A DNA stretch of 36,143 nucleotides from a virus. Under the pieces are notes generated by a model, which did not search any database, was not told where the DNA came from, and was given only the letters and a program-made list of their open reading frames with translations. The position numbers were made by a program, and so were the translations under genes. The stretch covers positions 1 to 36,143 of the IMG/VR virus record IMGVR_UViG_3300047559_000122. One strand, written 5' to 3'. Below, piece by piece: positions 3,277 to 32,171 of this stretch. Each line of letters begins with the position of its first letter. Position 1 is the first letter of the stretch.

Positions 3277-3942
3277 ATGAAAATTAAACTGACAGAGTCT
3301 CAAATTATAAATATCCTCAAAGAGTCAGATAGTGAAGATGTAAAGAAAATTGCCGATAAAATCGGTGATTCTAATAAGTTCACTGACGCTATGGATGCCC
3401 TGTCGTTTTTTATGAGTAAATCCGACGATGTAAATCGAGGTGATGGGTCCATAATCGCTAAATGGGCGGGTATTGATATTAACCCAAAATTTAATGCTGA
3501 CGGCGCTGCCCCTGAAGATTTTAAAACTATTGACATTTGGCCGGTTAATGATGCAACACTAACTAGTGGTTTTGGTCCAAGAAATATTGGAAAGGGTGCT
3601 TCGAAAAATCACATGGGTGTGGACTTAGGAGTACCCGTTGGGACTCCAATCTTTTCACCTGCGGACGGTGTGGTTGAGGCCGCGAGAGACACTACTCCAG
3701 ATGCGTGTGGTGGGTTCGTAAAAATTAAACATGATAGATATTCAACCAAATACTGTCATTTAAGTAATTTTAATGTAGTTAAGAAAGGTGATCAAGTCAA
3801 GAAGGGTCAATTAATAGGTTATACTGGTGGGGCGGAAGGTGCTAAATATAGTGGTAATTCACAAGGACCTCACCTACATTATGAGGTGTTAGTGGGAGAA
3901 CGTCACGTAGACCCACAACAAGTCCACACTAGACTTTCTTAA
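3277..3942 (+). CDS. M23 (LytM) peptidase with putative capsid-targeting N-terminus
   Basis: Residues ~88-215 form an M23/LytM zinc endopeptidase domain. The ligand motif HMGVD (H112, D116) and HLH (H199, H201) are present with an added H161 in YCHLS, and GFGPR and GPHLHYEV match the family. These enzymes cut peptide cross-links of peptidoglycan. There is no signal peptide. Instead the protein starts MKIKLTESQIINILKESD: an amphipathic helix ending in I-L-K-E, which fits the (L/I)-x-E cleavage site of T4-type prohead proteases. I infer it may be packaged in the head and delivered during infection; a tail-tip role is the alternative. The start is fixed by the TATTTATT motif 3 nt upstream. Confidence 0.88.
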   Translation: MKIKLTESQIINILKESDSEDVKKIADKIGDSNKFTDAMDALSFFMSKSDDVNRGDGSIIAKWAGIDINPKFNADGAAPEDFKTIDIWPVNDATLTSGFGPRNIGKGASKNHMGVDLGVPVGTPIFSPADGVVEAARDTTPDACGGFVKIKHDRYSTKYCHLSNFNVVKKGDQVKKGQLIGYTGGAEGAKYSGNSQGPHLHYEVLVGERHVDPQQVHTRLS

Positions 3943-4252: not shown

Positions 4253-4624
4253 ATGAGTTTCTTAGATAAGAAAAGACAAGATAAGATTGTTGAGTTTGTG
4301 AAGTTTGTTAAAGACGAACTTGGTTTAAAGAAATGCCCATCCATTAAATTATTAAATGGTAGGGGTGACTTGAAAACCACTGCACACTACAATTACTCTA
4401 ATCCTGAGAAAGTCATAAAGGTGAATGCCAAGAACAGACATATTGTTGACATTATGAGAAGTATCGCTCACGAAATGGTTCACCACAAACAATTTGAGGA
4501 GGGTAAATTAGACGGACCAAAACCACCCGATATTGGAGGGGAGATTGAGGATGAGGCAAACGCTAAAGCGGGTCAGTTCATCAAGATGTTCTCAAAACAA
4601 GACAACACCATTTATGATGAGTGA
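4253..4624 (+). CDS. HExxH zinc metalloprotease-like protein
   Basis: This 123-residue protein carries HEMVHH near residue 79, a classical HExxH zinc motif. EIEDEANAKAG follows ~20 residues later and could supply the third, glutamate ligand of a gluzincin. It has no signal peptide and is much smaller than secreted proteases, so it resembles the compact SprT/M78-like domains common in large phages. The substrate is unknown: protein processing and peptidoglycan are both possible. The stop codon directly abuts the stop of the convergent DnaA-like gene (4624/4625). Confidence 0.75.
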   Translation: MSFLDKKRQDKIVEFVKFVKDELGLKKCPSIKLLNGRGDLKTTAHYNYSNPEKVIKVNAKNRHIVDIMRSIAHEMVHHKQFEEGKLDGPKPPDIGGEIEDEANAKAGQFIKMFSKQDNTIYDE

Positions 4625-5002
4625 TTAAGACCACCTCTTAATTTCACTATCAACTCTTTCAAAAACCCTTTCAGCAATTTCATAATAAGTTCTATCGAAT
4701 TGGAACTTGTCTATGTGTGCATTTACACCATGAATTGCGGTTGAGTGGTCTCTATCTAAAAATCCACCAATGGTACTATACGTCATACCAAAACGATCCC
4801 TCATTATAAAACAAAACAGTTGTCTCGAATCTGCCAAATGTCTATGACGTTTTCTTGAGATTAAATCACTTATGGTCGCTTCCGATTCATCCGCAATGAT
4901 TTTAAGGATATCCCACGGAGTGATGTTGAATCTTTGTTTTGTTTTAAACTTACTTCTTACTTTGGGGTCGATACCGGGATATGAATAAGGACTCATTTTC
5001 AT
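4625..5002 (-). CDS. Stand-alone DnaA domain IV-like DNA-binding protein
   Basis: Residues ~28-118 resemble the C-terminal DNA-binding domain IV of the replication initiator DnaA. It has an N-terminal helix (TPWDILKIIADES), then RHLADSRQLFCFIMRDRFGMTYSTIG and the signature-like FLDRDHSTAIHGV at about 81-93; DnaA has a basic DHTTVxHA-type motif at this point. The AAA+ ATPase domain and domains I-II are absent: the whole protein is only 125 residues. It could bind DnaA boxes on host or phage DNA, compete with host initiation, or act as a regulator. It is the last of four leftward genes. Confidence 0.85.
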   Translation of the reverse strand: MKMSPYSYPGIDPKVRSKFKTKQRFNITPWDILKIIADESEATISDLISRKRHRHLADSRQLFCFIMRDRFGMTYSTIGGFLDRDHSTAIHGVNAHIDKFQFDRTYYEIAERVFERVDSEIKRWS

Positions 5003-5806: not shown

Positions 5807-6027
5807 CTCCTCTTTTTTCTTTTTTGTTTTTTCTTCTTTTTGGGTTCACCATAGTATGGGTTATTAGGTCCATACTTATTCGCCTTCATATTTCTATAGA
5901 AAGGGACTTGAATGGAGGTGGGAACACCAACCCTATTTTTATAAACTCTTGGGCAGTGGTAACACGCACATGATGTGAAAGAAAACATCATTAGGACCAC
6001 TAAAAGAAAGTATAATATCCTTTTCAT
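5803..6027 (-). CDS. Small lipoprotein with basic tail, 74 aa
   Basis: The N-terminus MKRILYFLLVVLMMFSFTSC is a clear type II signal peptide with lipobox FTSC and C20 as lipid anchor. More cysteines follow (CACYHC). The C-terminus is a lysine/arginine run (EPKKKKKQKRKKRR). A membrane-anchored, highly basic peptide could bind peptidoglycan, LPS or DNA at the envelope; a spanin-like or exclusion role is possible but unproven. It is the first gene of the leftward group and has a good host-type promoter. Confidence 0.75.
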   Translation of the reverse strand: MKRILYFLLVVLMMFSFTSCACYHCPRVYKNRVGVPTSIQVPFYRNMKANKYGPNNPYYGEPKKKKKQKRKKRR

Positions 6028-6031
6028 AATA

Positions 6032-6061
6032 CAAATATAGGGATATTTTTTGATATCACAA
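6032..6061 (-). promoter_or_regulatory. Bacteroidetes-type promoter for the lipoprotein gene
   Basis: Read leftward, TTG (6059-6061) and TATATTTG (6032-6039) are separated by 19 nt, matching the Bacteroidetes housekeeping consensus (-33 TTG, -7 TAnnTTTG). The -7 box ends 4 nt before the ATG at 6027, so the message would be nearly leaderless. It is one of two good host-type promoters in the window. Confidence 0.7.
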
Positions 6062-6084
6062 CAATCCTCAAAAAAATTTTGGGA

Positions 6085-6092
6085 TATTTATA
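6085..6092 (+). promoter_or_regulatory. TATTTATA promoter-like octamer (gene 6097)
   Basis: The octamer is 4 nt before the ATG at 6097. This geometry, repeated across the window, argues that ATG 6097 is the true start and not the in-frame TTG at 6079, which lies upstream of the motif. Confidence 0.6.
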
Positions 6093-6096
6093 TATT

Positions 6097-6333
6097 ATGA
6101 AAATAATGATATCCGAAAAACAGTTACAGAATCTATTAGGTTCTGAGGTTGAGGTATCTGAACAGGACGCCACCGGAAGTGGGGATGCTCCCACAGATAC
6201 GGGAATACCAAAGTTTGCGGATAGAGTCGGGAGAGACGGTCCTGCGAATCAATTAGGTTTAACCAAATGGGAAACTGTGGTTGGTGCTAAGGTTTCCAGA
6301 GGACCGGGAAACCCACTGTGGAAAAAATCTTAG
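6097..6333 (+). CDS. Small glycine-rich protein with targeting-like N-terminus
   Basis: The protein of 78 residues starts MKIMISEKQLQNLLGSEVEV and continues with a Gly/Asp/Pro-rich, poorly ordered stretch and a short C-terminal W-containing segment. The N-terminus is similar in design to that of the M23 peptidase (MKIKLTESQIINILKE): Met-Lys-Ile, a Ser/Thr-Glu, then an amphipathic helix. It lacks a strict (L/I)-x-E site. It is the first gene of the 6097-10424 block and may be a minor virion protein. The start was chosen from the promoter octamer. Confidence 0.6.
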   Translation: MKIMISEKQLQNLLGSEVEVSEQDATGSGDAPTDTGIPKFADRVGRDGPANQLGLTKWETVVGAKVSRGPGNPLWKKS

Positions 6334-6342
6334 ATAGGTAAT

Positions 6343-7623
6343 ATGGTACAATATAGAAACGGAATCACACCAGGTAGAATGAATGACTTGATTGGTTATA
6401 ATTACCACTCATTACAGTCGGTGGGTGAGAGGAACTTCGTATTCGAATGTCATCTAACTGTGGATGAAAGATATTTCGTTTTACATGATGAGGTTTTCGA
6501 CATTCAAGAACAAACTAAATTGGGTAACATATGGGATTCAATTGATATTTTTAAAACAATCTTTAAAAACGTACAAATAGATAATCCCGAATATAGAAAT
6601 ATACAAGAAGGTTGGGAATCATTACCAATTTTGGAGGGTCAGAATAATCTACACGCATTAAGAGATTTTCTTTTAGAGTGGAGTTTTTTTGATAATACTT
6701 GGGTAGGAAGAAAATTAAAAGATGCCGGAACCGCAATAAAGGATACTGTGGTTGATTCATGGGAAGGTATCAAAAAATTTGGTATCGCGATTTCCAAGGG
6801 AGATTGGTCCGAAATTTTAAATTTAATGGGGAAGGGTGTCTTATTTGTTTTAAGAAAACTTAAATCGGCCGCGTACAGTACTATTGGTATTATTGTAGAT
6901 GCGATATTGGTTGCTACGGGTGTTGGTAAGGGATTTCAATTAGCTGCATGGGGTTTAATAACCGCATTAGATGTCTATCAATTGTCTACGGGAAATTATC
7001 CTGACGACGAAAAGGATAACCCAATGTGGTATAAAATTATGGAGTTGGGTTTTGATGTTTTAGGATTGGTAACCGCGGGCGTTGCCGCTAAAGGTGCGAG
7101 AGCGATTTTCAAACCATTGTCAAATCTTAAACTCCCTCAAATGGCGGCGAAAGTATCTAAGAGTCCCGCAATGAAAAGTTTTATTAAAAAAATACACACG
7201 GCCTCGAAAAGTGGGGTAAGTAAGTTAGGTGGTTTACAAAAAACGATCGCATCAAAATGGGGTGCTGGCGGTAGATTCATCGCAAGTATTTTAGGTAAAA
7301 TGGCGGATTTTATGAAGAAATTACAAAAATACTGTGGTGACATTCTTAAAAGGGCCAACCTTAAAAACGTTACCAAGAATAAATCAATACAACCAGGTAG
7401 AGGTTATGTACAAACTGTGAAATCGGGAAGTGAGTTTGCGAAACGTGCAGCACTACCCGCGACACTTGCTGGTGGTATCTCATACGGTATTGACACCTAT
7501 ATGGGGGGTGATGGTGAACAACCGAATAATAATACGGGTAGAGAATTCACAGATGATGATTTTAACCTAAACGGGGGTCCAGTGATGGGTGTTGAGTTAG
7601 ATCAAGACGCTTTGGATCTATAA
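6343..7623 (+). CDS. Putative virion protein with hydrophobic segments, 426 aa
   Basis: No named family is recognised. The N-terminal ~120 residues are globular. The middle contains two long hydrophobic stretches: STIGIIVDAILVATGVG with GLITALDVYQLS (about 180-215), and ELGFDVLGLVTAGVAAKGA (about 230-250). These are followed by a basic, alanine/lysine-rich amphipathic region (about 255-365) and an acidic tail ending DQDALDL. Such hydrophobic/amphipathic architecture without a signal peptide is seen in phage pore-forming or ejection proteins and in colicin-like pore formers. It sits between two genes with apparent capsid-targeting N-termini, suggesting a head-internal protein; that is inference. 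Confidence 0.65.
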   Translation: MVQYRNGITPGRMNDLIGYNYHSLQSVGERNFVFECHLTVDERYFVLHDEVFDIQEQTKLGNIWDSIDIFKTIFKNVQIDNPEYRNIQEGWESLPILEGQNNLHALRDFLLEWSFFDNTWVGRKLKDAGTAIKDTVVDSWEGIKKFGIAISKGDWSEILNLMGKGVLFVLRKLKSAAYSTIGIIVDAILVATGVGKGFQLAAWGLITALDVYQLSTGNYPDDEKDNPMWYKIMELGFDVLGLVTAGVAAKGARAIFKPLSNLKLPQMAAKVSKSPAMKSFIKKIHTASKSGVSKLGGLQKTIASKWGAGGRFIASILGKMADFMKKLQKYCGDILKRANLKNVTKNKSIQPGRGYVQTVKSGSEFAKRAALPATLAGGISYGIDTYMGGDGEQPNNNTGREFTDDDFNLNGGPVMGVELDQDALDL

Positions 7624-7625
7624 TA

Positions 7626-7633
7626 TATTTATA
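7626..7633 (+). promoter_or_regulatory. TATTTATA promoter-like octamer (gene 7645)
   Basis: The octamer starts 3 nt after the preceding stop and lies 11 nt before the ATG at 7645, so a short 5' leader of a few nucleotides is possible here. Confidence 0.5.
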
Positions 7634-7644
7634 AATAAAAAACG

Positions 7645-9768
7645 ATGAAATTAATTGACATTATATTTGAATCAAAGGAACATGAGGTTGGAGAACAACT
7701 TAATGCTATTTTAAAACTTGGTAAGAATACGACGACCGCGGTAAAAGGTGCCATCGATGATGTATTGAAATACACCCTTAAGGATGGGAAGGTATTACAA
7801 ACCGCCAGTAAAACCCCATTGACAACTGTAGATGATGTTGTTAAAGCCATGAAGGCGGGTACTCTTGGTTCTGAGAGTGCATCACAATTAGCGTCAGGAC
7901 TTTTAAAAACAAATAAGTGTCCAAGAAATGTACAAATCGAATTAGTTACGGAAATAGCTGCGGGACCAAAATTTAAACAAATTGTTGGTTCTGTTAAAAG
8001 TGAAACCGCACTTATCAAAAGACTAAAAACAAAGGGTTATACTGATGAAACAATTGAACTGTTTATCGGTCGAGCAAAAGAACAAAAAATAGGGCCCTAT
8101 GCAAATGTTGCTAAGGTCGGATCGACAGGTAAAACAGGTGCGACAGGTGGTAAAACAGGTGCAACAGGTGGTAAAACAGGTGCCGGCGCAGGTAAAGGAG
8201 GAACTTCAACAACACAAGTACTTGCCGATCCAAAGGGTTGGTTATCTCGTGTAGCAGAAAGACTTGGAAAAACTAAAGTAGGTAAGTTTACAGGGTCTAT
8301 ATTTAAAACCATTCGTCCGGTGGCGAGAACGTGGGGTATGATTAAATTTTTAACATACTGTGCAATCTTTGGTATTGGTGGTGTCATCTTATATGACTTA
8401 TGGAAAAAACTTGTGGGTGGATGGGACACAGTCCCAACTGATGATGAAATCAATGAAATGGGGGACTTCGTTAATTGTATTGTTAAACCTTTAAAAGACG
8501 ATGAAGGTGCTGAGATTATGGAGGATGGTGATAATGTTGCCCTTAAGTATAAAGTTGATGAGTTAGGGGGTAAACAAACGGGAGGTTATGTGATATTCTA
8601 CTCGAATTATGTTGTTAAAACCGCAAAAGGGGAGACAGGTAAATGGTCTTGTAACAAAACCGGATTGTTAAATGAACAATCATCGGGCGGAGAAATGACC
8701 TCTGCACAGATGAGTAGGTTAATTGATGAATTAGATGACCAATTAAGTGGGGATTTCTTTGAAGGGGATTCGACCGACATGATGGATGCACTAAATGTAT
8801 TAAAAGGTGCGGTTGGTATGACTTATAAAGGAAAAGATGCCATTAAAGTATTAGTTAGTAATTATCCGAAAATCGTGGGTGTATCGTTAGAGAACCATGT
8901 TGAAGAATTAACAAACCTCGACTTTGAAGCGATGGAGGCGAAAGATGAGTTTCTTTCAATCATTGGTTCTTCTAAAGCTGGTAAATCGCAAGGCGATTCC
9001 GATAGTTCAGACGCTGGTGAAGTTGATGGTGATGGAAACCCCAACACCGGTCTTTCACATTTAACGATTATATGGGACGACTCCAAAGATGACGGAGGAG
9101 GTGGTGGTGGAGGAACCGCTAAGTTCAGACCATGTAGTGATTTCCCATTCGAACTTGGGTGTATTAATGATAAAATTAAAGACTTACAAGGGTGTCTTAA
9201 TAAAAGAGGTTCTTTATTAAAGACCGATGGTTATTATGGACCAAAGACCCATAAAGATCTATTGGATCAGTCATTCTTTGCCGATGATGATCCCGACAAT
9301 CAAATCATTACACAAAAAATGTACGACACCTTTATGGCACTATGTAATAAAGAAGTGAAGAGAGATGTTGTAACACCCGTGGATGATTTGAAATCTAAAG
9401 GTTTAACTCCACTACCGATAACTAAATTGGATCCTCCTGGAATGATCGATCTTCACGGTCAACAGAAATTGTTGGATCAGGCAAAGAAGACTATCGATGG
9501 TCAGGTGATACAATCTATTATTGATAACGATATTGAATATCGTAGAGGTAGATATGTTTTGAAACAGTCTAAAGAACTCACAGTGGATCAACTAACCGCG
9601 ATCAATAGATACATGGCGGGTAAAGGGTTTACTTTAGACAAAAAGAGAGAGACTTTAGAAGATTCAAAATATGTGTGGGTTGCCGATGATAGAATGGCAA
9701 GAAGACAGGCGAGACTTGAAAAGAGAGGGAATAAAATCCAAGATAAAATAGATAACATTCAGAGATAA
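7645..9768 (+). CDS. Large putative ejection protein: TM segment and peptidoglycan-binding-like domain
   Basis: This 707-residue protein starts MKLIDIIFESKEH, where I-F-E is a candidate prohead-protease site after residue 9, as in T4 internal-protein leaders (MKTYQEFIAE). Features in order: helical region (10-150); a Gly/Thr/Lys repeat GKTGATGG (about 160-190); a single hydrophobic helix FLTYCAIFGIGGVILYDLW (about 234-252); an acidic middle; a run of seven glycines (about 480); a segment IKDLQGCLNKRG...TDGYYGPKTHKDL (about 510-545) resembling a PG_binding_1 domain; and a basic coiled-coil C-terminus. A membrane helix plus wall-binding domain behind a head-targeting peptide fits an ejected, envelope-penetrating protein. 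The family itself is unknown to me. Confidence 0.7.
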   Translation: MKLIDIIFESKEHEVGEQLNAILKLGKNTTTAVKGAIDDVLKYTLKDGKVLQTASKTPLTTVDDVVKAMKAGTLGSESASQLASGLLKTNKCPRNVQIELVTEIAAGPKFKQIVGSVKSETALIKRLKTKGYTDETIELFIGRAKEQKIGPYANVAKVGSTGKTGATGGKTGATGGKTGAGAGKGGTSTTQVLADPKGWLSRVAERLGKTKVGKFTGSIFKTIRPVARTWGMIKFLTYCAIFGIGGVILYDLWKKLVGGWDTVPTDDEINEMGDFVNCIVKPLKDDEGAEIMEDGDNVALKYKVDELGGKQTGGYVIFYSNYVVKTAKGETGKWSCNKTGLLNEQSSGGEMTSAQMSRLIDELDDQLSGDFFEGDSTDMMDALNVLKGAVGMTYKGKDAIKVLVSNYPKIVGVSLENHVEELTNLDFEAMEAKDEFLSIIGSSKAGKSQGDSDSSDAGEVDGDGNPNTGLSHLTIIWDDSKDDGGGGGGGTAKFRPCSDFPFELGCINDKIKDLQGCLNKRGSLLKTDGYYGPKTHKDLLDQSFFADDDPDNQIITQKMYDTFMALCNKEVKRDVVTPVDDLKSKGLTPLPITKLDPPGMIDLHGQQKLLDQAKKTIDGQVIQSIIDNDIEYRRGRYVLKQSKELTVDQLTAINRYMAGKGFTLDKKRETLEDSKYVWVADDRMARRQARLEKRGNKIQDKIDNIQR
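8125..8184 (+). repeat. In-frame 21-nt tandem repeat (GKTGATG)
   Basis: Three consecutive units of ACAGGTGGTAAAACAGGTGCA (the first lacks one GGT) encode a collagen-like TG(G)KTGA repeat inside the 7645 protein. The unit length is a multiple of three, so copy number can change without frameshift. It probably forms a flexible linker. Confidence 0.85.
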
Positions 9769-10424
9769 TGAGAAGTAATATCGAAAACATAGTAAGAAAT
9801 ACGTTGAATGAGAGATACGAAATCAACAGATCTCTTAGATTAATCATTGAAAATGAAGAAACCGATGACATCACAAAGTTAGATGGTGTATTAGATACTC
9901 TACAAGCAATGGTAGACGATGGTAAAAGTGAAGGTGAAATAGAATCGTCTTTAGATGAGGGAATTATTGATTGGGTTACTAGTAAATTCGGTTTAGGTAA
10001 TGACAAATCATCAGATCAAGGTGGGGATACATCAGTAAGTGGTGATAATCTTTTAGATAAAGGTTCATCAGGGATGTTCTCACAAATGAGAGAATGGTTT
10101 ATTAGAAAAGGTTTAGCTATTATTGGTTTTAGAGGACCCTTAGCCGACGCATTTGCCGCATCGTTCGCCGATTTAGATATTAGGGCAGTAATCGGATTAT
10201 TTAGGGGAGGTGAAAGTTGTCAAACATATGGTCCCCAAGTTGCGGATGCCTTAATTGAGGGTATGGCAACATATATGTTAGGTGGGGCCGAAGATAAATC
10301 TGTCGCACAAAACCTAATTAGAAATATGGTGATGGAATATGAGAAAGCATCAAATATTGGTGAAACCATTGCGGGTTACCTATGTAAAATGGATATTAGA
10401 AGTGCGTTGACAAAATACGCATAA
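9768..10424 (+). CDS. Putative head-internal protein with double cleavage-like N-terminus, 218 aa
   Basis: ATG overlaps the TAA of the preceding gene (TAATG), so translation is coupled. The N-terminus MRSNIENIVRNTLNERYEIN has L-N-E at 14-16 and I-I-E at 27-29, both matching (L/I)-x-E. Residues 30-105 are acidic and Ser/Gly-rich. The C-terminal ~110 residues look folded (MREWFIRKGLAIIGFRGPLADAF and a later CQTYGPQVADALIEGMATYM). I do not know the family. Coupling to the 7645 gene suggests they act in the same structure. Confidence 0.65.
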   Translation: MRSNIENIVRNTLNERYEINRSLRLIIENEETDDITKLDGVLDTLQAMVDDGKSEGEIESSLDEGIIDWVTSKFGLGNDKSSDQGGDTSVSGDNLLDKGSSGMFSQMREWFIRKGLAIIGFRGPLADAFAASFADLDIRAVIGLFRGGESCQTYGPQVADALIEGMATYMLGGAEDKSVAQNLIRNMVMEYEKASNIGETIAGYLCKMDIRSALTKYA

Positions 10425-10448
10425 AATGTTAAAAATTTATAGAAATTT

Positions 10449-10473
10449 AACCCTCTTCGGAGGGTTATTTTTT
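10449..10473 (+). terminator. Intrinsic terminator, end of 6097-10424 block
   Basis: AACCCTC (10449-10455) pairs with GAGGGTT (10460-10466) across a TTCG-containing loop, followed by ATTTTTTT. This is a canonical stable tetraloop hairpin with a T-run. Confidence 0.9.
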
Positions 10474-10483
10474 GCCTACATGA

Positions 10484-10491
10484 TATTTATT
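10484..10491 (+). promoter_or_regulatory. TATTTATT promoter-like octamer before a 10-codon ORF
   Basis: The same octamer lies directly after the terminator and 3 nt before an ATG (10495) that opens only a 10-codon frame, MRSVLWSVLD (10495-10527), containing a direct repeat of TCGGTACTT (10501-10509 and 10513-10521). It could drive a short leader peptide or a noncoding RNA running into the structured element at 10543. Confidence 0.45.
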
Positions 10492-10542
10492 AATATGAGA
10501 TCGGTACTTTGGTCGGTACTTGATTGATAAACGAAATAACGA

Positions 10543-10589
10543 AAAGGAGGTGTGTACTTATCTCGGCAAAGGGGTTTAACGACCTCTTT
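10543..10589. other. Structured element A (paired with 16002-16027)
   Basis: AAAGGAGGT (10543-10551) can pair with ACCTCTTT (10582-10589), extended by AACGA/TTCGTT outside. The loop contains CTCGGCAAAGGGG. The element at 16002-16027 has a shorter stem, AAAGGT/ACCTTT, around a loop with ATCGGCAAAGAG, and the same ACGAAAAGG lead-in. Stem-length differences are matched on both sides, which supports conserved RNA structure. The strand is uncertain. It overlaps the 3' end of the gene at 10576 (-). On the + strand AAAGGAGGTG is fully complementary to the usual bacterial 16S 3' end. Confidence 0.5.
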
Positions 10590-10860
10590 GTTCGTTAACG
10601 ACCTTCTGAAGTTCTTTAAGTAGTTTATCATTAGTATTTTCCCCCTTTTTGACGTTCGTCAATTTATACTTAGTACTATACTTTTCCTCAAAACTACTAC
10701 CCACACCAATATCTAATATTTCTGAATCTTTGGGAACTAGTGGTTTCCTTTTATTGGGGTCGATAATATCATCAACCAACACATCATGGAATATCTCCAA
10801 GTGTATAGTCTCTTTTTTTCTATAGATTGTTTTATATACTACAACAACAGGTGGTTTCAT
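10576..10860 (-). CDS. Hypothetical protein, 94 aa
   Basis: It starts MKPPVVVVYKTIYRKKETIH and is mixed alpha/beta by eye, ending with a helical KLLKELQKVVNEQRGR. I recognise no family. It lies just downstream of the tmRNA terminator in the same direction. Its last codons form part of structured element A, so the 3' end of its message would carry that hairpin. Confidence 0.6.
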   Translation of the reverse strand: MKPPVVVVYKTIYRKKETIHLEIFHDVLVDDIIDPNKRKPLVPKDSEILDIGVGSSFEEKYSTKYKLTNVKKGENTNDKLLKELQKVVNEQRGR

Positions 10861-10863
10861 ATT

Positions 10864-10895
10864 TTAAAATAAAAAAGGGATCCGAAGATCCCTTT
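10864..10895 (-). terminator. Intrinsic terminator of tmRNA
   Basis: Read leftward, AAAGGGATC (from 10895) pairs with GATCCCTTT across a 4-nt loop and is followed by TTTTTTATTTT. The hairpin begins at the last A of the tmRNA CCA end, so the 3' end is presumably trimmed from it. Confidence 0.9.
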
Positions 10896-11310
10896 GGTGG
10901 AGGTGGTGGGTTTCGAACCCACGTCTTGCTCGTCCCAACCATAAAGGACTACACGTTTAGGTTAAGGTTTTTCATACCTTCCAAAATAGTTGGTTCCTAT
11001 TTTTCCATCGTCACCAACAACTGTGGAGGGTTCACTCAAATCGGTAGAACCCCAAACGAGACCTCCATTCCTTTTTGGGTAGAAACCACACCTTAGGGAC
11101 TTCTGTTTCAAGGTTATATGTCCACCGACCCATTGTAGGAATAACCTTAGGCTACTGCTACTTTAGAATCAACAGATACAAGACCCATTAATTCCATTTG
11201 TGAATAAACGTTGCCGTCTAAAAATGTATCTCCGTAGATTTAAGTGATAGGAAACATCTCACTACGTGCCCCGTATGACTGACTACGCCAATCAATTCCA
11301 AGTCACCCCC
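10895..11310 (-). ncRNA. ssrA: tmRNA (transfer-messenger RNA)
   Basis: The leftward RNA begins GGGGGTGACTTGGAATTGAT and ends with T-arm GTGGGTTCGAAACCCAC and CACCTCCACCA. The acceptor ends pair over 7 bp with a G3-U70 wobble and discriminator A, the identity elements for alanine charging. CCA is encoded. A resume codon GGC is expected at 11215-11213, about nt 96 (E. coli: nt 90), preceded by TAGAC (E. coli TAGTC). The frame from there runs 22 codons, GNVYSQ...DSKVAVA, to TAA at 11149-11147. The tag is long and ends VAVA, not the usual ALAA. tmRNA rescues stalled ribosomes and tags the product for proteolysis. It starts 2 nt after the stop of the gene at 11313. Confidence 0.93.
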
Positions 11311-11312
11311 GT

Positions 11313-11579
11313 TTATTTAATGTTCTGTGGTTTCTTACCACCACCATTAGATGTGCCACCATTTTTTGGTTTTGGTCTGTAATATTTCTTTTTCTTTGGT
11401 TTCGGTGAATCACCTAAATCCTCAGACAACTCGATCTCCTTCTTAATTTCAACACTTTTAGGTGTTGGTCTTACGGTGGTTGGTTTTGATTTAGTTTGTG
11501 GTCTTGGTGGAGGAGTATGTTTTACTTCCACTTTTTTAAAACCAAACAAACCTTTTAAAAATGCAATAATTTTTTTCAT
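11313..11579 (-). CDS. Small basic proline/lysine-rich protein, 88 aa
   Basis: The protein starts with an amphipathic helix MKKIIAFLKGLFGFKK, followed by low-complexity Pro/Lys/Thr-rich sequence (TPPPRPQTKSKP, PKPKKKKYYRPKPKNGG) and a Gly/Asn-rich tail. It lacks a lipobox. The first helix resembles membrane-active peptides; the tail is disordered and cationic. The stop codon is immediately before tmRNA, so the two are almost certainly co-transcribed and separated by RNA processing. The function is unknown. Confidence 0.6.
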   Translation of the reverse strand: MKKIIAFLKGLFGFKKVEVKHTPPPRPQTKSKPTTVRPTPKSVEIKKEIELSEDLGDSPKPKKKKYYRPKPKNGGTSNGGGKKPQNIK

Positions 11580-11596
11580 AATAATATGTGTTTATA

Positions 11597-11604
11597 TATA
11601 AATA
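11597..11604 (-). promoter_or_regulatory. TATTTATA octamer upstream of 11579 gene and tmRNA
   Basis: Read leftward, TATTTATA lies 17 nt before the ATG at 11579. It is the only promoter-like element seen directly before the 11313 gene and tmRNA, so tmRNA may be made from this phage-type promoter. Confidence 0.5.
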
Positions 11605-11625
11605 TAGGAATTTTTATGGTAAAAG

Positions 11626-12291
11626 TCAAATGGTTACGGGTAGGTATTTCTCATAGAGTGCCTCAAAGAACAGTTTGTTCTTTAGCCACTTCTTGTCGGT
11701 CATACCAATTGACTTGTGAAATAGTTTAATTTTAGTTGTTACACCGACCTTTACTCCATCTAAATGATTCAGTAAACAGATCGGTAGGTCGTAGAAGTGA
11801 AACCCCCCAAACTGATCGTCAAATTGATGTTTTATTCTCTTCTTATGAATCATCATAAAGAGACCGTCAATGATTACAACTTCTTTAATTAAATCACCAA
11901 AAGACTCGGAATACTTAGATACATATCTTTTATTACCATTGATATGTCCGACTTGACCCTTCATTGAGTCCCTATCCTGCCACCATTGTCCCGATATGAG
12001 GTTATCAGTGCCGGCAAGACCAATAATCCCGTAATCAGGATTCCTGTCAAACATCTTTATAATTTTAGGGGTCAGATTCTTAGTCTCAAATTCGAGATCG
12101 TCATGAATAAATACGACAACGTCATTTGTAGAACTATTCAACCCCTCATTATAAACTTGAGTTAGTGATTTCTCACCATTATTCTCAATGAAAATGTATT
12201 CGTTTTTTGGGTGAGAAAAGAATTTTTTCACATGTTGAACATAGGTCTCATCAATACTTCGTGTTGAACAAACTACAGTTATTGTATTCAT
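11626..12291 (-). CDS. Glycosyltransferase family 2-like protein
   Basis: The protein of 221 residues has a GT-A-type N-terminus: ITVVCSTRSID, then YIFIENNGEKSLTQVYNEGL and DVVVFIHDDLEF, where HDD is the likely metal-binding DxD-like motif. IIGLAGTDNL and FGGFHFYDLPICL follow, typical of small GT2-like enzymes that act on sugars delivered as nucleotide sugars. It is the second sugar-modifying locus of the window. It may glycosylate virion protein, host surface glycan or DNA; the sequence does not discriminate. It is followed leftward by the tmRNA unit. Confidence 0.8.
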   Translation of the reverse strand: MNTITVVCSTRSIDETYVQHVKKFFSHPKNEYIFIENNGEKSLTQVYNEGLNSSTNDVVVFIHDDLEFETKNLTPKIIKMFDRNPDYGIIGLAGTDNLISGQWWQDRDSMKGQVGHINGNKRYVSKYSESFGDLIKEVVIIDGLFMMIHKKRIKHQFDDQFGGFHFYDLPICLLNHLDGVKVGVTTKIKLFHKSIGMTDKKWLKNKLFFEALYEKYLPVTI

Positions 12292-12302
12292 ATATTTCTA
12301 AT

Positions 12303-12332
12303 AAAAAAGGGTTAACGTAAAACGACAACCCT
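12303..12332 (-). terminator. Intrinsic terminator after 12359 gene
   Basis: Read leftward, AGGGTT and AACCCT enclose a 13-nt loop and are followed by TTTTTT. It lies between the stop at 12359 and the start of the glycosyltransferase at 12291. Confidence 0.7.
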
Positions 12333-12358
12333 CTCTTTAAATGATAAACAATATAAAT

Positions 12359-12556
12359 CTATTTGTCAAGTTCTTTTAGTAATTGTTTAAACGCGGACTC
12401 ATAAAGTGGTATTAATGTGGGAATAGATGGATGTTGGGGTTGTTCCATTTTAGAAACTAGCTCCCTCAATTCATCAACAATACCCATCTCGTGGGCTTGT
12501 ATCATAATCTCTTCGTATGCGTCACTGCTTGTCCACCCCATTGGTTGAATCGTCAA
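12359..12556 (-). CDS. Small acidic helical protein, 65 aa
   Basis: It starts MTIQPMGWTSSDAYEEIMIQ and is predicted to be helical (AHEMGIVDELRELVSKMEQP). The first 35 nt overlap the end of the upstream 45-aa gene in another frame, so they are translationally coupled. No family is recognised. Confidence 0.6.
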   Translation of the reverse strand: MTIQPMGWTSSDAYEEIMIQAHEMGIVDELRELVSKMEQPQHPSIPTLIPLYESAFKQLLKELDK

Positions 12557-12659
12557 TCTTTTGTTGTAATTTTTGTATTTGTTTTTTTACTTCTTGAGTT
12601 TGTTTACCAAACTTAAGTTTTAAAATCTTTTCAAATATCTTCTTTCTATCCAACGACAT
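12522..12659 (-). CDS. Small coiled-coil protein, 45 aa
   Basis: A short minus-strand frame encodes MSLDRKKIFEKILKLKFGKQ and then a Gln/Lys-rich helical stretch ending GVDKQ. A promoter-like TATTTATT (12663-12670) lies exactly 3 nt before the ATG, the same geometry as for large genes here, which supports expression. The heptad-like Ile/Leu spacing suggests a coiled coil. The function is unknown. Confidence 0.6.
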   Translation of the reverse strand: MSLDRKKIFEKILKLKFGKQTQEVKKQIQKLQQKIDDSTNGVDKQ

Positions 12660-12662
12660 AAT

Positions 12663-12670
12663 AATAAATA
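12663..12670 (-). promoter_or_regulatory. TATTTATT octamer (gene 12659)
   Basis: A minus-strand copy of the octamer with the 3-nt gap to ATG. It supports a strand-specific role for the motif. Confidence 0.55.
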
Positions 12671-12689
12671 TGTCAAAATAATGTAAGAA

Positions 12690-13142
12690 TTACCTACATT
12701 GATAATCCGCAGCACGAGTCGCAATTTGTTCATTTGGTTTAACATTAACCTTATAACCTAATGAGTTTGCCCACCCTTTTGTCATTGGGATTAGTTTATT
12801 AGAGAAGTATTTATCGTTGGCATTATAATCTAAATCTATTTGTATCTCTATCTTAATTTTTTCCGATATCCACTGTGCGATCTCGATAGAATACTCCGCC
12901 TCTTTTAACAATCGTGTAAACTTATCATTTATACGATCCACCATAAAGTTCTTATATATGTAGTGAACTCCTCGAGTCCCAAATCTATACGCAACAACAA
13001 CTGCGTACTTTGTATGTAATGCGGTATTCTGAGAATCGGTACCTACATGTATAACCGTGTTTGGAAAGTCTTCTAAAACGTCTAATGTGTGCTTAACAAT
13101 CTCAACTTTAGAACCGTCTATTTTCTGAAAGACCTTTACCAT
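12690..13142 (-). CDS. YkuK/DUF458-like RNase H-fold protein
   Basis: The 150-residue protein contains VIHVGTDSQN near residue 30, KYAVVVAYRFGTRGVHYIY near 45-62 and DLDYNANDKYFSN near 104. These fit the DUF458 (YkuK) family, which adopts an RNase H-like fold; the DSQ aspartate and DLDYN acidic residues are the likely active-site carboxylates. The C-terminus TRAADYQCR is also typical. The biochemical role of the family is poorly known. It is immediately upstream of the tRNA genes on the same strand, so a link to RNA metabolism is possible. Confidence 0.75.
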   Translation of the reverse strand: MVKVFQKIDGSKVEIVKHTLDVLEDFPNTVIHVGTDSQNTALHTKYAVVVAYRFGTRGVHYIYKNFMVDRINDKFTRLLKEAEYSIEIAQWISEKIKIEIQIDLDYNANDKYFSNKLIPMTKGWANSLGYKVNVKPNEQIATRAADYQCR

Positions 13143-14786: not shown

Positions 14787-15029
14787 ATGGCAAAATGGGT
14801 TGAAATATTCAAAGACAAAAATGACTATAATGAGAAATCAATCGTAGGATTTGCATCATTCGCAGTAATGGTATTGTTCGCAATGGCGGATATAATGACA
14901 GGATTCTTCGGTAAGGATTTGGTGATACAAGAATTTATCTATAATTCTTTTGTAATCATCACATTGGGTTCTTTCGGTATCGCCGAGGCGGGTAAGGTCT
15001 TTGGTAAAAAGAATAATGAAGAAGAATAA
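14787..15029 (+). CDS. Putative holin, two transmembrane helices
   Basis: The 80-residue protein has a charged N-terminus, a first hydrophobic helix (about 19-40, SIVGFASFAVMVLFAMADIM), a second helix (about 50-68, FIYNSFVIITLGSFGIAEAG), and a charged C-terminus (KVFGKKNNEEE). Size, two helices and position 11 nt upstream of an endolysin gene fit a holin, which permeabilises the inner membrane to release or activate the lysin. The call rests on architecture and context, not on a sequence family. Confidence 0.75.
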   Translation: MAKWVEIFKDKNDYNEKSIVGFASFAVMVLFAMADIMTGFFGKDLVIQEFIYNSFVIITLGSFGIAEAGKVFGKKNNEEE

Positions 15030-16070: not shown

Positions 16071-17399
16071 TTAAATGAGGGGTAAATTTTTGGAAATTTC
16101 CATGTTCCCCTCATTTATTTTTAATAAAACTTCTTTATCCTGAACAATATTACCCATTAAAATCTCATCACTAATAAAGTCTTCGCACAGATTTTGGATG
16201 ATTCTTTTAATAGGTCTCGCACCATACTCCTCTTCAGAGTTTCGTTTAATAATTTCATCGATGACACTTTTATCAAAAGTAATTTTGTATGAGTTATCAA
16301 CCAATCTACTATAAAGTGAACTCATTTCGAGTTGTACAATTTTACGAAGAGATTTATCATCTAACTTATTGAATACAATAATATCGTCAATACGATTCAA
16401 GAATTCAGGAGTAAACTGTTGTTTCAAAGATTTTCTGATGATAGAATCTTTAACCCTCTCTTGATTTTCTGAGTCCGTAAAACCAACACCACCTCCAAAA
16501 TCCGAAACCTTCTTTGCACCAATGTTCGATGTCATGATGATTAGGGTATTGGTGAAATTTACTTTTCTACCAAACGAATCGGTTAAGTGTCCCTCATCCA
16601 ATATCTGAAGTAGGATGTTGAATACATCTTTATGTGCCTTCTCGATCTCGTCAAATAGGACTACCGAAAAAGGGTTGTTTTTAATCTTTTCAGTCAATTG
16701 ACCTCCTTCATCATAACCAACATAACCCGGAGGTGAACCTATCAATTTAGATACGTTATGTTTTTCCATGAATTCACTCATGTCAACTCTCACAATTTTT
16801 TCGGGATCACCAAAAAGAGTGTTTGCTAGTGTTTTCGCTAGATGAGTTTTACCGACACCCGTAGATCCTAAGAACATAAATGAACCGATCGGTTTGTTAC
16901 TACTCTTAACCCCAACTCGATTTCTTCGGATTGATTTTGAAATTTTAGTGACAGCATCATCCTGACCAATAACATTCTTAGATATTGTTTTTTCTAAATT
17001 TAATAGGTTTTTACTTTCCTTAGTATCCAACTTTGAAATTGGAACACCGGTCATATTGGTGATGAGGTCATATACGTCTTCTATGGTCACCTCCTTTTTA
17101 TTAATCTTTTGTTCGTCATTCCACTTTTTCTTTTCGGTTTCGAGTTTCTTAATGATTTTCTTTTCCTCGTCTCGAAGTTGTGCCGCTTGCTCGTAATCTT
17201 GAGACTTAACCACACTTAATTTTTTTGTTTTGATGGATTCTGCCTCTTTTTTTAACTTTTCGATAGAATCAGGAACTTTTACATTAATCTTCTTTTCCGA
17301 ACCCAACTCATCCAATACATCAATTGCCTTATCAGGAAACTGTTTATCTGTTATGTATCTCTTAGAAAGATTAACTATGGTTTCAATAACGTTTTCAAT
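16071..17399 (-). pseudogene. clpC: ClpC-type AAA+ unfoldase, C-terminal part (frameshifted)
   Basis: The frame resumes ClpC homology at ENVIETIVNLSKRYITDKQF. A UVR-like middle region follows (KSQDYEQAAQLRDEE), then the second AAA+ module: Walker A GSTGVGKTHLAKTL, Walker B SVVLFDEIEKAH, arginine-finger region FTPEFLNRID, and the small D2 domain. GGGVGFTDS carries the VGF tripeptide at the place of the ClpP-docking loop, which ClpB lacks. The homologous frame has no good start; MFSKNQQ at 17468 reads out-of-frame sequence of the upstream part. Compared with ClpC proteins, 6-7 residues are missing at the junction, so about 20 nt seem to be lost. Confidence 0.85.
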
Positions 17400-18066
17400 C
17401 CTCGTAAGAAGACTTAAGATTATAAAGAATGTCCACGGTTTCAGTAACTGTTGGTTCTTGGAGAACAATTTTTTGGAATCTTCTCACTAACGCACCGTCT
17501 TTTTCGATATTCTTTTTGAATTCGTCGAAGGTGGTCGCACCAATACATTGAATTTCACCACGTGCCAATGCGGGTTTTAGGATATTAGCTGCATCCATTG
17601 AACCTGACGCATTACCCGCACCCACCATAGTGTGAATTTCATCAATAAAAACAATTACGTTGGGGGCGTCCACTAATTCGTTAAGAATTGCCTTAATCCT
17701 CTCCTCAAACTGACCACGGTACTTAGTTCCCGCAACCAATGAGGTGAGATCCAAAGACATAATTCTTTTATCTATGAGATTTGTTGGACAGTTACCATTT
17801 GTGATTAATAATGCCAACTTCTCCACTAATGCGGATTTACCCACACCCGCATCACCAACGATTACAACATTGTTTTTCTTTTTCCGTGATAATATCTGAG
17901 CAATACGCATCACTTCTTTATCCCTTCCAATAATGGGGTCTATGAGTCCCTCAGACGCTAAACGTGTGAGATCTCTGGAGAAATTGTCAAGTACGGGCGT
18001 ATTCGATCCTCTTTTACCTTTTCTCTGTTGTTGGGGGGTTCCCCCTTCAAAAAAATCTACGGACAT
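17395..18066 (-). CDS. clpC: ClpC-type AAA+ unfoldase, N-terminal part (first ATPase module)
   Basis: This part has the D1 module of a Clp/Hsp100 unfoldase: TPVLDNFSRDLTRLA linker, GRDKEVMRIAQIL, Walker A GDAGVGKSALVEKL, Walker B VIVFIDEIHTMVG, and RRFQKIVLQEPTV. The usual Clp_N substrate domain is absent; the protein begins MSVDFFEGGTPQQQRK just ahead of the D1 linker. The frame ends YNLKSSYED-stop, at the point where ClpC proteins continue to the D1 small domain. Without D2 the product would be unlikely to hexamerise and translocate normally. It is divergent from hsp20. Confidence 0.88.
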   Translation of the reverse strand: MSVDFFEGGTPQQQRKGKRGSNTPVLDNFSRDLTRLASEGLIDPIIGRDKEVMRIAQILSRKKKNNVVIVGDAGVGKSALVEKLALLITNGNCPTNLIDKRIMSLDLTSLVAGTKYRGQFEERIKAILNELVDAPNVIVFIDEIHTMVGAGNASGSMDAANILKPALARGEIQCIGATTFDEFKKNIEKDGALVRRFQKIVLQEPTVTETVDILYNLKSSYED

Positions 18067-28453: not shown

Positions 28454-29137
28454 ATGAAAGTATTAGGTCCTAAAGAAACAGGTAAGGGTATCCTCATCGA
28501 ATACGATGCGGGTTTTGTGTCACCTGAAGAAAATAAGAAAATCATTTCTGAAATGAAGAACGTTGACTTCTCTGAAGACATAGTTCTTTATGCTGTTTTA
28601 CAAAAGTTCGATACACCGAATAAAAACGGTAGAATATATCCTGAAACCATTCTTAAAAGAGAAATGGACAAATATCAGGGTGTCATCAATAAAGGTTCGG
28701 CACTAAACGAACTAAACCACCCATCATCTTCTCTTATTGATTTAGATAGAGTTTCTCACGTTATTACTGAAACGTGGTGGGAAGGTAAAATCCTTATGGG
28801 TAAACTAAAGTTACTTACATCCCCTGGTTGGAAAAAGATGGGTATTGTCTCAACTAAAGGTGATCAGGCGGCGATGTTACTTCAAAATGGGGTGACTTTA
28901 GGTATTTCTTCAAGAGGTGTTGGTTCACTTAAATCAGAAAAAGGACAAAATATCGTACAGGACGATTTTGAATTGGTTTGTTTTGATTTAGTGTCATCAC
29001 CATCAACCCCTGGCGCCTACGTATTCACAGACCCATCAGAAAGGGAGAAGTACGAGGAGTCTATTGAGGAGAAACCAATCGTAGATGATAGAATGAAAAA
29101 ATTAATGGGAAAAATGGATAGTTTTCTATCCCGATAA
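28454..29137 (+). CDS. Prohead core protease (T4 gp21-like)
   Basis: The 227-residue serine protease matches the T4 gp21 family. YAVLQKFDTPNKNGRIYP (about 46-63) is the conserved N-terminal block. ELNHPSS holds the likely catalytic H89 and GVTLGISSRGVGSL the likely nucleophile S152. FDLVSSPSTPGA near 178-190 is the conserved third block. The family cleaves after (L/I)-x-E to remove head-targeting peptides and scaffold and to mature capsid proteins. It lies directly upstream of scaffold and capsid genes, as in T4. Its presence makes the (L/I)-x-E pattern of other proteins meaningful. Confidence 0.95.
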   Translation: MKVLGPKETGKGILIEYDAGFVSPEENKKIISEMKNVDFSEDIVLYAVLQKFDTPNKNGRIYPETILKREMDKYQGVINKGSALNELNHPSSSLIDLDRVSHVITETWWEGKILMGKLKLLTSPGWKKMGIVSTKGDQAAMLLQNGVTLGISSRGVGSLKSEKGQNIVQDDFELVCFDLVSSPSTPGAYVFTDPSEREKYEESIEEKPIVDDRMKKLMGKMDSFLSR

Positions 29138-30476: not shown

Positions 30477-32171
30477 ATGGGAGCATTATTAGAAAGTGGT
30501 ATGGTTGGTAACATCGGTCTTAAGCACTTGAGAGTTATCAAAGAAGATACCATTAAAAAATGGGATGACTTAGGATTCCTTGAGGGATTAAACGGTCACC
30601 AAAAAGACAACATCGCACAATTGTATGAAAACCAAGCTTCATACTTGATTAACGAAGCAGCTGTATCTGATTCATCAGGTTCTTTTGAAACAGTTGTTTT
30701 CCCAATCATCAGAAGAGTTTTCTCTAAATTGTTAGCGAACGACATCGTATCAGTACAAGCAATGAACTTACCTATTGGTAAATTGTTCTACTTCGTACCT
30801 AAAATTCAGGAAAGATCAAACGGAGCTCACTTAGAGCCTTATGGAATGCCTGGTAACAATGCCGCTAACGGTGGTTACACAGGAAGAAATCTTTATGATA
30901 GATTCTATGAGGAGAGTGATGACGCATCAGAAGGTTTATTTGATTACTCAAAAGGTGATTTCACTACTGAGTCATTAACTGCCGGTGCATTCGTTACTTT
31001 CTCTAACGGTGCAGCAACTAACTCAACAACTGCATTAGGTGCTGACGCTGCTAGCGTTATCATCGTGGCTTCAGGTTTCACAAATGCAGGTTCAAGTAAG
31101 ATTGTAGGTCCTAACGGTAACGAGATGGACACTGAAGAATTCTTGGCTTCATTAGAGGTTACTTACGGTGGTGTTAAGAGAAACTTTAACGTAGTTACTC
31201 AAAAGTACGGTAAGGGTATCGTTGAATATGGTACTACAGGTGCTGGTGTAACAGGTTCTTATGACAAAATCGTTGACCAAGATGGTCTTCTTTATTTGAA
31301 TGTAGACTTACAGACTTATTCAGCATCTACAGGTTTTGCTGATGGTGGTAATGGTGCCGTTCCTGGTGACTTCACATTATCTTACAGACAATATGGATCT
31401 TTGGAATTCGAAGATGCGATTGGTGAAGTTTCTTTCGAATTAGAGTCAGTAACTGTTTCTGTAACTGAAAGAAAATTAAGAGCTAGCTGGTCTCCTGAAT
31501 TGGCTCAAGACGTATCTGCATTCCACAACATCGATGCTGAAGCTGAGTTAACTGCATTGTTATCTGAGCAAATCGCTGCTGAGGTTGATAGAGAAATCTT
31601 AAGAGACTTAAGAAAAGGTGCCGCTTGGAACTTGAAGTGGGATTACAATGAGTGGAAGTATGGTGGTTCTAACGGAGCTACTTTACAAGGTTACACTCAA
31701 AAGGATTGGAACCAAACGTTGATCACTAAGATTAACCAATTATCGGCTCAAATCCATAAAACTACACTAAGAGGTGGTGCTAACTGGATCGTTGTTTCTT
31801 CTGAAGTTTCAGCTGTATTCGATGACCTTGAGTACTTCCACGTATCTAACGCAGGTGCTGAGCAAGACCAATACAACATGGGTATTGAGAAAGTTGGTAC
31901 TTTAGCTGGTAGATATCAGGTGTATAGAGATCCTTACTTCCCTGCTGGTAAGATCTTAGTTGGTCACAAAGGTAAATCTTTATTGGACGCTGGTTACATC
32001 TACGCTCCATATGTACCTTTACAGTTGACTCCAACTATGTACAATCCATTTAACTTCACTCCGATCAAGGGTATCATGACCAGATACGCTAAGAAGATGG
32101 TTAACAACAGATACTTCGGTGTGATCAATGTTAGTGGTTTACAAACATTTAGCTTGGATACTTTAAGATAA
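30477..32171 (+). CDS. Major capsid protein (T4 gp23-like)
   Basis: The 564-residue protein matches the gp23 family: SFETVVFPIIRRVFSKLLAND (about 70-89) and VSVQAMNLPIGKLFYF (about 92-107) in the N-terminal arm, ERKLRASWSPELAQD near 338, and FTPIKGIMTRYAKKMVNNRYFG near the C-terminus. Residues 1-60 form the propeptide ending in YLINE; cleavage after E60 would match the gp23 maturation site (T4 after residue 65). The gene uses C-ending codons (AAC, TTC, TAC) more than its neighbours, typical of very highly expressed genes. No octamer precedes it, so it probably shares the scaffold transcript. A strong terminator follows. Confidence 0.97.
   Translation: MGALLESGMVGNIGLKHLRVIKEDTIKKWDDLGFLEGLNGHQKDNIAQLYENQASYLINEAAVSDSSGSFETVVFPIIRRVFSKLLANDIVSVQAMNLPIGKLFYFVPKIQERSNGAHLEPYGMPGNNAANGGYTGRNLYDRFYEESDDASEGLFDYSKGDFTTESLTAGAFVTFSNGAATNSTTALGADAASVIIVASGFTNAGSSKIVGPNGNEMDTEEFLASLEVTYGGVKRNFNVVTQKYGKGIVEYGTTGAGVTGSYDKIVDQDGLLYLNVDLQTYSASTGFADGGNGAVPGDFTLSYRQYGSLEFEDAIGEVSFELESVTVSVTERKLRASWSPELAQDVSAFHNIDAEAELTALLSEQIAAEVDREILRDLRKGAAWNLKWDYNEWKYGGSNGATLQGYTQKDWNQTLITKINQLSAQIHKTTLRGGANWIVVSSEVSAVFDDLEYFHVSNAGAEQDQYNMGIEKVGTLAGRYQVYRDPYFPAGKILVGHKGKSLLDAGYIYAPYVPLQLTPTMYNPFNFTPIKGIMTRYAKKMVNNRYFGVINVSGLQTFSLDTLR

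Follow-up and report, generated by a model that had tools for sequence, protein, structure and literature searches.

Can a phage with a T4-type head carry into the host a set of its own proteins that act on the membrane and the cell wall? We asked this of a cassette of four genes, 6097, 6343, 7645 and 9768 (named by start position), in a 36,143-base IMG/VR virus record (IMGVR_UViG_3300047559_000122, positions 1 to 36,143), hereafter the window. A preliminary description of this DNA had proposed hydrophobic and wall-binding proteins behind head-targeting leaders, possibly an ejected envelope-penetration complex. The T4-type head module of the window comprises a large terminase (23269), a portal (25094), a prohead (head maturation) protease (28454 to 29137, plus strand; phrog_207, 1.2e-44) and a gp23-type major capsid protein (30477 to 32171, plus strand; phrog_138, 4.7e-68). 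The cassette is thus encoded in the same record as gp23 and the presumed processing enzyme. The conserved SYLINE/AAV site of gp23 (here and below, a slash marks a predicted cut) is the same in the major capsid proteins of contigs G002, G004, G005 and G012. Rhodothermus phage RM378 and Flavobacterium phage immuto are among the named records whose capsid protein is closest to that of the window, and from this likeness the host is likely a member of the Bacteroidota.

Is the cassette a unit? Scanning viral contigs with the 6343 family revealed 15 loci, and the gene order recurs in distant IMG/VR phage contigs. Apart from the window, seven distinct loci (L003, L004, L005, L022, L023, L029 and L030) keep the order 78-amino-acid (aa) leader protein (the product of 6097), 6343, 7645, 9768, so that the grouping is real and beyond chance. 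Some of the 15 loci are near-copies (L002 of L003; L025 to L027 of L024; L032 of L030), L024 and L028 are without a recognisable 9768 gene, and the frames of L031 are broken. In L024, the place of 7645 is taken by two genes, one for a 371-aa membrane protein and one, of 198 aa, for a peptidoglycan (PG)-binding domain; the latter gene (12287 to 12883) stands alone as if split off near the cut predicted for 7645. A tail sheath gene scores above the Pfam cut-off in G005 (310 kb, carrying L023) and G012 (251 kb, carrying L031), and at least these cassette relatives are therefore contractile. A collection of 50,697 phage records gave no megablast match to window positions 6000 to 12000. In the same records, tblastn gave no match for 7645 or the 78-aa protein, and neither 6343 (best E 0.9) nor 9768 (best E 6) had a relative. 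The 6343 family had no relative among 84,980 prokaryote genomes, and five T4-like records (immuto, RM378, LR756508, LR756511 and Mel-JY01) gave no match to the profiles of 6343, 7645 and 9768.

Other genes of the window recur in the related loci. A stand-alone DnaA domain IV protein is encoded at 4625 to 5002 on the minus strand (Pfam Bac_DnaA_C, 1.1e-14), and look-alikes adjoin the cassette in L003 (8732 to 9106), L004 (8344 to 8727) and L005 (1296 to 1661). Small metalloprotease-like proteins of HELVHH type are encoded directly upstream of the cassette in several relatives: L003 (8108), L005 (696), L023 (9247), L024 (9246) and L031 (8828); the candidate counterpart in the window is an open reading frame (ORF) at 4253 to 4624 that has no Pfam match. 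A ClpB/ClpC-like ATPase at 16071 to 18066 (minus strand) is split across two overlapping frames, both matching phrog_4871. Since this ATPase is intact in L005 (11196 to 13211, a single 671-aa frame), we take the window copy to be either frameshifted or misassembled.

Do the cassette proteins bear marks of processing by a prohead protease? As described in section 2.5 of PMC9026906, T4 gp21 cuts after L/I-X-E, and propeptides are 7 to 65 residues long. Glutamate sites are conserved in all four proteins. In the 78-aa protein (6097 to 6333, plus strand; 84 aa from a TTG at 6079), the predicted propeptide comprises residues 1 to 22, and E22 is conserved in 9 of 10 members, with L, I, V or M at P3 in nine and L or I in seven. 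The site takes the form [LIVM]xE/[QA], the exception being L023 with LEE/Q a few residues earlier. The mature part of this protein is rich in KW..RG.AN motifs; a KW....RG.AN motif seemingly occurs in it twice and is clearest in L024 (9658 to 9936). For 6343, the predicted propeptide covers residues 1 to 35 (6343 to 6447, plus strand), with a cut at E35/C36 and a second candidate at E56/Q57. Both glutamates are found in 11/11 members; P3 of E35 is L, I, V or M in all 11 and L or I in six, and P3 of E56 is I or L throughout. A cut at E17/Q18 would remove residues 1 to 17 of 7645 (7645 to 7695, plus strand). This glutamate is present in 10/10 members with L, I, V or M at P3 in seven, and it fits the T4 motif poorly because just one member has L or I at P3. 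The predicted cut in 9768, E64/G65, has its glutamate in eight of nine members (P3 L, I, V or M in eight, L or I in five). The leader at 6079/6097 sits on the separate small protein, and 6343 has a propeptide-like N-terminus of its own; a single gene made of 6079 and 6343 was ruled out, as the two frames are kept in relatives.

A further predicted site lies inside 7645, at E344/Q345 (8674 to 8679, plus strand). Both residues are invariant in 10/10 members, and P3 is L or I in 9/10. They are one of two adjacent invariant pairs in a linker (residues 337 to 355) whose other columns reach at most 5/10 identity. Because an invariant E-Q pair stands in so variable a linker, 7645 is probably cut here into a membrane part and a wall-binding part.

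Are motifs of this kind concentrated near N-termini more generally? We took 252 proteins, each 200 aa or longer, from four records and counted where [LIVM]xEQ occurs: within residues 6 to 45 in 20 proteins, within residues 46 to 85 in 13, and within the next three windows, up to residue 205, in 2, 3 and 3. The enrichment in residues 6 to 45 relative to the last three windows has a Fisher p of 2e-7, which is optimistic because related proteins were counted more than once; the control excludes residues 46 to 85, since propeptides may extend into them. The wider motif xE[QASG] showed a weak gradient over the windows (47, 49, 30, 29 and 22). In immuto, which is without the cassette, the strong leader seeds matched 1 of 194 ORFs, probably by chance. 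L028, L029, L030 and L032 have a different, unrelated leader on 7645. In G005, leaders of the form K.xITExQLKxxI...EQ are found on many unrelated proteins (L046 to L061; for example, at 267625, 270462, 277456 and 284448), like an exchangeable tag, and some leader-bearing proteins are encoded near tail genes. Since so many unrelated G005 proteins carry them, the leaders may not be head-specific. The protease-type sites are backed by conservation; the head targeting named in the preliminary description is something that we infer.

Where in the cell would the products act? The 707-aa product of 7645 (7645 to 9768, plus strand) has a single transmembrane helix at about residues 226 to 254 (8320 to 8406; hydropathy peak 1.79), flanked by charges of +7 before and -5 after. 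Charges of +5 to +7 before the helix and -1 to -6 after it occur in 10/10 members, which predicts an N-in/C-out topology; the hydropathy peak is only about 1.0 in L029, L030 and L032, and 1.2 in L022. In 7645, the six invariant cysteines are all C-terminal to the helix; 8 of the 10 members lack any further cysteine. The 218-aa product of 9768 (9768 to 10424, plus strand) is translationally coupled to 7645, its start codon lying inside the 7645 stop codon (TAATG), and all nine members of its family have two cysteines and no more, at invariant positions. These patterns fit an oxidising periplasmic destination with putative disulphide bonds. The single helix, a variable GKTGATG linker at about residues 160 to 185, a glycine run at 484 to 490, the PG-binding-like domain and the coupling of 9768 all bear out what had been read from the sequence before.

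The PG-binding-like domain of 7645 (residues 497 to 567; 9133 to 9345, plus strand) contains four invariant cysteines. Pfam PG_binding_1 (PF01471) scores 13.5 bits on 7645, below the cut-off of 23, and reaches E ≤ 0.1 in 2 of the 10 family members. The domain is supported by profile comparisons, by its fold and by endolysins encoded in the same genomes. A nine-member domain profile (A13) matched two of 177,635 distinct PDB sequences at E ≤ 1 (0.021 and 0.025), both of them PG-binding endolysin-type enzymes. Compared with the domain of the window's own endolysin (15041), which carries Pfam PG_binding_1, A13 gave a P of 4e-5 and a probability of 70%. Over 821 ORFs, A13 ranked its own four proteins first, the next three being endolysin 15041 and, in G001 and G002, ORFs of about its length. 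In the AlphaFold2 model of 7645 (mean pLDDT 61), this region has a pLDDT of 70 to 84, and residues 498 to 568 aligned with SleB-N (Z 7.7, rmsd 2.6, 69 residues), AP3 endolysin (Z 7.3, rmsd 2.7, 66 residues) and phiKZ gp144 (Z 6.9, rmsd 2.8, 69 residues), with CtpB also matched; the Z range was 7.7 to 6.7, and a Z under 8 is by itself middling. Residues 348 to 442 (8686 to 8970, plus strand) form a predicted helical domain arranged like one annexin repeat (VIA-align 2, Z up to 9.8, 72 to 80 residues in the best rows), a Z that helical domains easily reach by chance; no Pfam annexin match was found. Foldseek with the 7645 model gave no PDB or BFVD match at E ≤ 0.001, and the evidence for the domains therefore comes from VIA-align and the profiles. 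Searches of 6343, 7645 and 9768 against PHROGs and Pfam found no hydrolase domain, and the fold is one of binding only.

What, then, is 6343? This 426-aa protein (6343 to 7623, plus strand; the 11-member family A9) has the two hydrophobic segments noted previously, at residues 172 to 208 (6856 to 6966; Kyte-Doolittle peak 1.78) and 229 to 257 (7027 to 7113; peak 1.36), followed by the basic region, which is helical, at residues 261 to 345 (7123 to 7377; net charge +17). We claim no fold for it, because the AlphaFold2 model from 11 sequences was unusable (pLDDT 46, pTM 0.36) and a PDB search gave no match at E < 0.5. PDB matches of A9 and A11 to coronavirus spike, G-alpha and proteasome were judged to be chance similarity of helices.

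Family members compared with PHROGs matched tape-measure families, among them phrog_1283 in 4 of 11 (best 2e-4), the label carried by the gp29 gene of the Ursula record. Of ten cassette contigs searched as whole records, eight had a phrog_1283 match to the 6343 homologue, always within profile positions 267 to 370, and G003 and G012 had none; in G010 the homologue was hit weakly a second time. Our own gp29 profile, built from six phages, scored 6.4 to 16.8 bits for 10 of the 11 family members and 1.7 for L005, against at most 2.7 bits for 550 shuffles and -1.5 for reversed sequences. Over the 821 ORFs of five phages, 6343 homologues ranked 1, 2, 3 and 5 (E 3e-4 to 0.04). The match covers only about 90 of the 426 residues (134 to 224; 6742 to 7014, plus strand) at profile positions of about 269 to 366, in constant register, and the matched part of gp29 comes after, not on, its most hydrophobic stretch. 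Direct comparison of gp29 with the 6343 family by hhalign was weak (P 0.0024, probability 12%), and the reverse search, with the A9 profile against gp29s, was hardly above noise. T4 gp29 alone gave no alignment with A9 in the matching region, and the annotated tape measure of immuto gave no useful match to four cassette records. The gp29-like segment in 6343 is a new result of the present analysis; the likeness is weak but specific, and we take this one segment to be genuinely, though distantly, related to gp29. Passages in PMC9022992 present tape measure proteins as likely contributors to an inner-membrane conduit. The match could reflect a tape-measure-type membrane segment delivered from the head, or it could mean that these are tail proteins. 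A structural match to tail proteins had been named as evidence against ejection; what we found is a tail-protein match by sequence profile rather than by structure, and the objection applies in part.

A possible enzymatic partner is encoded nearby. An M23 endopeptidase with the leader MKIKLTESQIINILKES lies at 3277 to 3942 on the plus strand (Pfam Peptidase_M23, 3.6e-26), and G001, G002 and G004 have leader-bearing homologues about 2 to 5 kb upstream of their cassettes. M23 relatives were present in 3 of 14 searched records and in none of the other 11, some of which are short fragments. We regard the enzyme as accessory to the cassette.

One potential explanation unites these observations: the cassette would encode virion-carried proteins, processed by the prohead protease, that act on the inner membrane and wall at entry. 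We hold this reading tentatively, at somewhat less than an even chance. Packaging, cleavage, ejection, topology in vivo and the entry function are all deduced here from sequence. The proteins would most likely be packed in the head and processed there by the T4-type protease. Without its propeptide, 6343 would supply a tape-measure-like segment that inserts into the inner membrane. A cut at E17 of 7645 and another at E344 would yield fragments of about 327 and 363 residues. The first would anchor in the inner membrane with its basic N-terminus towards the cytoplasm, and the second, with the annexin-like and PG-binding-like domains and probably disulphide-bonded, would hold the cell wall. The 9768 and 78-aa proteins would be partners, and in the nearest relatives the leader-bearing M23 endopeptidase would open the wall. 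The envelope-penetration idea thus gains from the PG-binding fold, the helix with its predicted topology, the conserved protease-type sites, the neighbouring M23 gene and the contractile-tailed relatives, and it is complicated by the gp29 match. In its most specific form, that of a head-carried trans-envelope entry set under prohead protease control in T4-like contractile-tailed phages, probably of Bacteroidota, with a tape-measure-derived membrane protein and a two-part anchor and wall protein, we consider the proposal somewhat unlikely. If true, it would describe a T7-ejectosome-like device in a myovirus that evolved from tape-measure parts. The passage of T4-like phage DNA through the inner membrane is not settled, and the cassette would provide a directly testable candidate; a head-packaged, protease-released set would also join two entry strategies that are now kept apart. 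A literature search of partial coverage, and so no proof of absence, returned no title describing a head-carried PG-binding and membrane set.

Could the cassette instead encode tail proteins, with 6343 in the tail tube as a short tape measure or hub protein, or as part of one, 7645 and 9768 at the tail tip or in the tube lumen touching the wall, and the protease-type sites coincidental or meant for another protease? The tape-measure matches of the 6343 family, including the first rank among the 821 ORFs, favour this, as does the fact that no other tape measure was recognised in G005, where seven proteins were compared with PHROGs, the large pair that has hydrophobic stretches matched nothing, and the ORFs of the tail region were covered in part. 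We nevertheless think it unlikely: the match is confined to one segment of 6343, the G005 cassette (about 284 to 288 kb) is far from the sheath and tube genes (56 to 60 kb) and the baseplate wedge gene (86 kb), and section 2.5 of PMC9026906 does not name T4 gp29 among the prohead-protease substrates.

Two further readings send the proteins elsewhere. A lone internal helix whose flanking charges follow the positive-inside pattern can serve as a signal anchor. The helix of 7645 is of this type, and PG binding would suit a spanin-like or exclusion role, so the products might be host-envelope proteins made in the infected cell that block superinfection or assist lysis. The window has a separate lysis module (the amidase endolysin at 15041 and a small hydrophobic protein at 14787), and the conserved E-Q sites and swapped leaders would go unexplained; we judge this account unlikely as well. 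Alternatively, the products may resemble T4 IPI-III or Alt: proteins of the prohead core or head interior that are delivered to the cytoplasm to take over the host or counter its defences, their PG-binding-like and membrane features being incidental. Parts of PMC9026906 and PMC5694885 describe protease-processed, ejected proteins in T4 and phiKZ-type heads, section 2.5 of PMC9026906 reports T4 core proteins cut into several fragments, and single A10 members match scaffold families weakly (E 0.0037 and 0.021). The cysteines after the membrane helix, the supported PG-binding fold and the nearby leader-bearing M23 gene point to the envelope, however, and we find this the most improbable of the readings.

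How does an envelope-acting, head-carried set compare with known systems? With T4 gp29 (phrog_1283), 6343 shares about 90 residues, aligned to about positions 279 to 366 of the gp29 profile; the rest of 6343 is unmatched, its gene lies outside the tail cluster in G005 and its N-terminus is propeptide-like. The wall-binding domain of 7645 has the fold and the motif G.FG..T in common with PG_binding_1-type domains (SleB, AP3 endolysin and phiKZ gp144) but differs from them in scoring below the Pfam cut-off, in its four invariant cysteines and in having no joined enzyme. T4 IPI-III and Alt and the head ejection proteins of phiKZ and SPN3US are likewise processed proteins of myovirus heads with x-x-E propeptides, and none is described with both a PG-binding domain and a membrane anchor in the portions of PMC9026906, PMC5694885 and PMC10052503 that deal with them. 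The gp14, gp15 and gp16 proteins of T7 and their P22 counterparts, as outlined in sections of PMC8954989, are carried in the virion, have membrane segments and a domain acting on the wall, and aid DNA across the envelope. The window proteins had no PHROG match to T7 gp14, gp15 or gp16, and one A10 member weakly matched a family labelled 'pilot protein for DNA ejection' (E 0.032); the cassette may work in a similar way, and membership in these families is without sequence support. Compared with T7 gp16, the cassette has a PG-binding fold in place of a transglycosylase, with a hydrolase (M23) on a separate gene. Compared with T7 and P22, its relatives are contractile-tailed, and its proteins are predicted to mature through a prohead protease.
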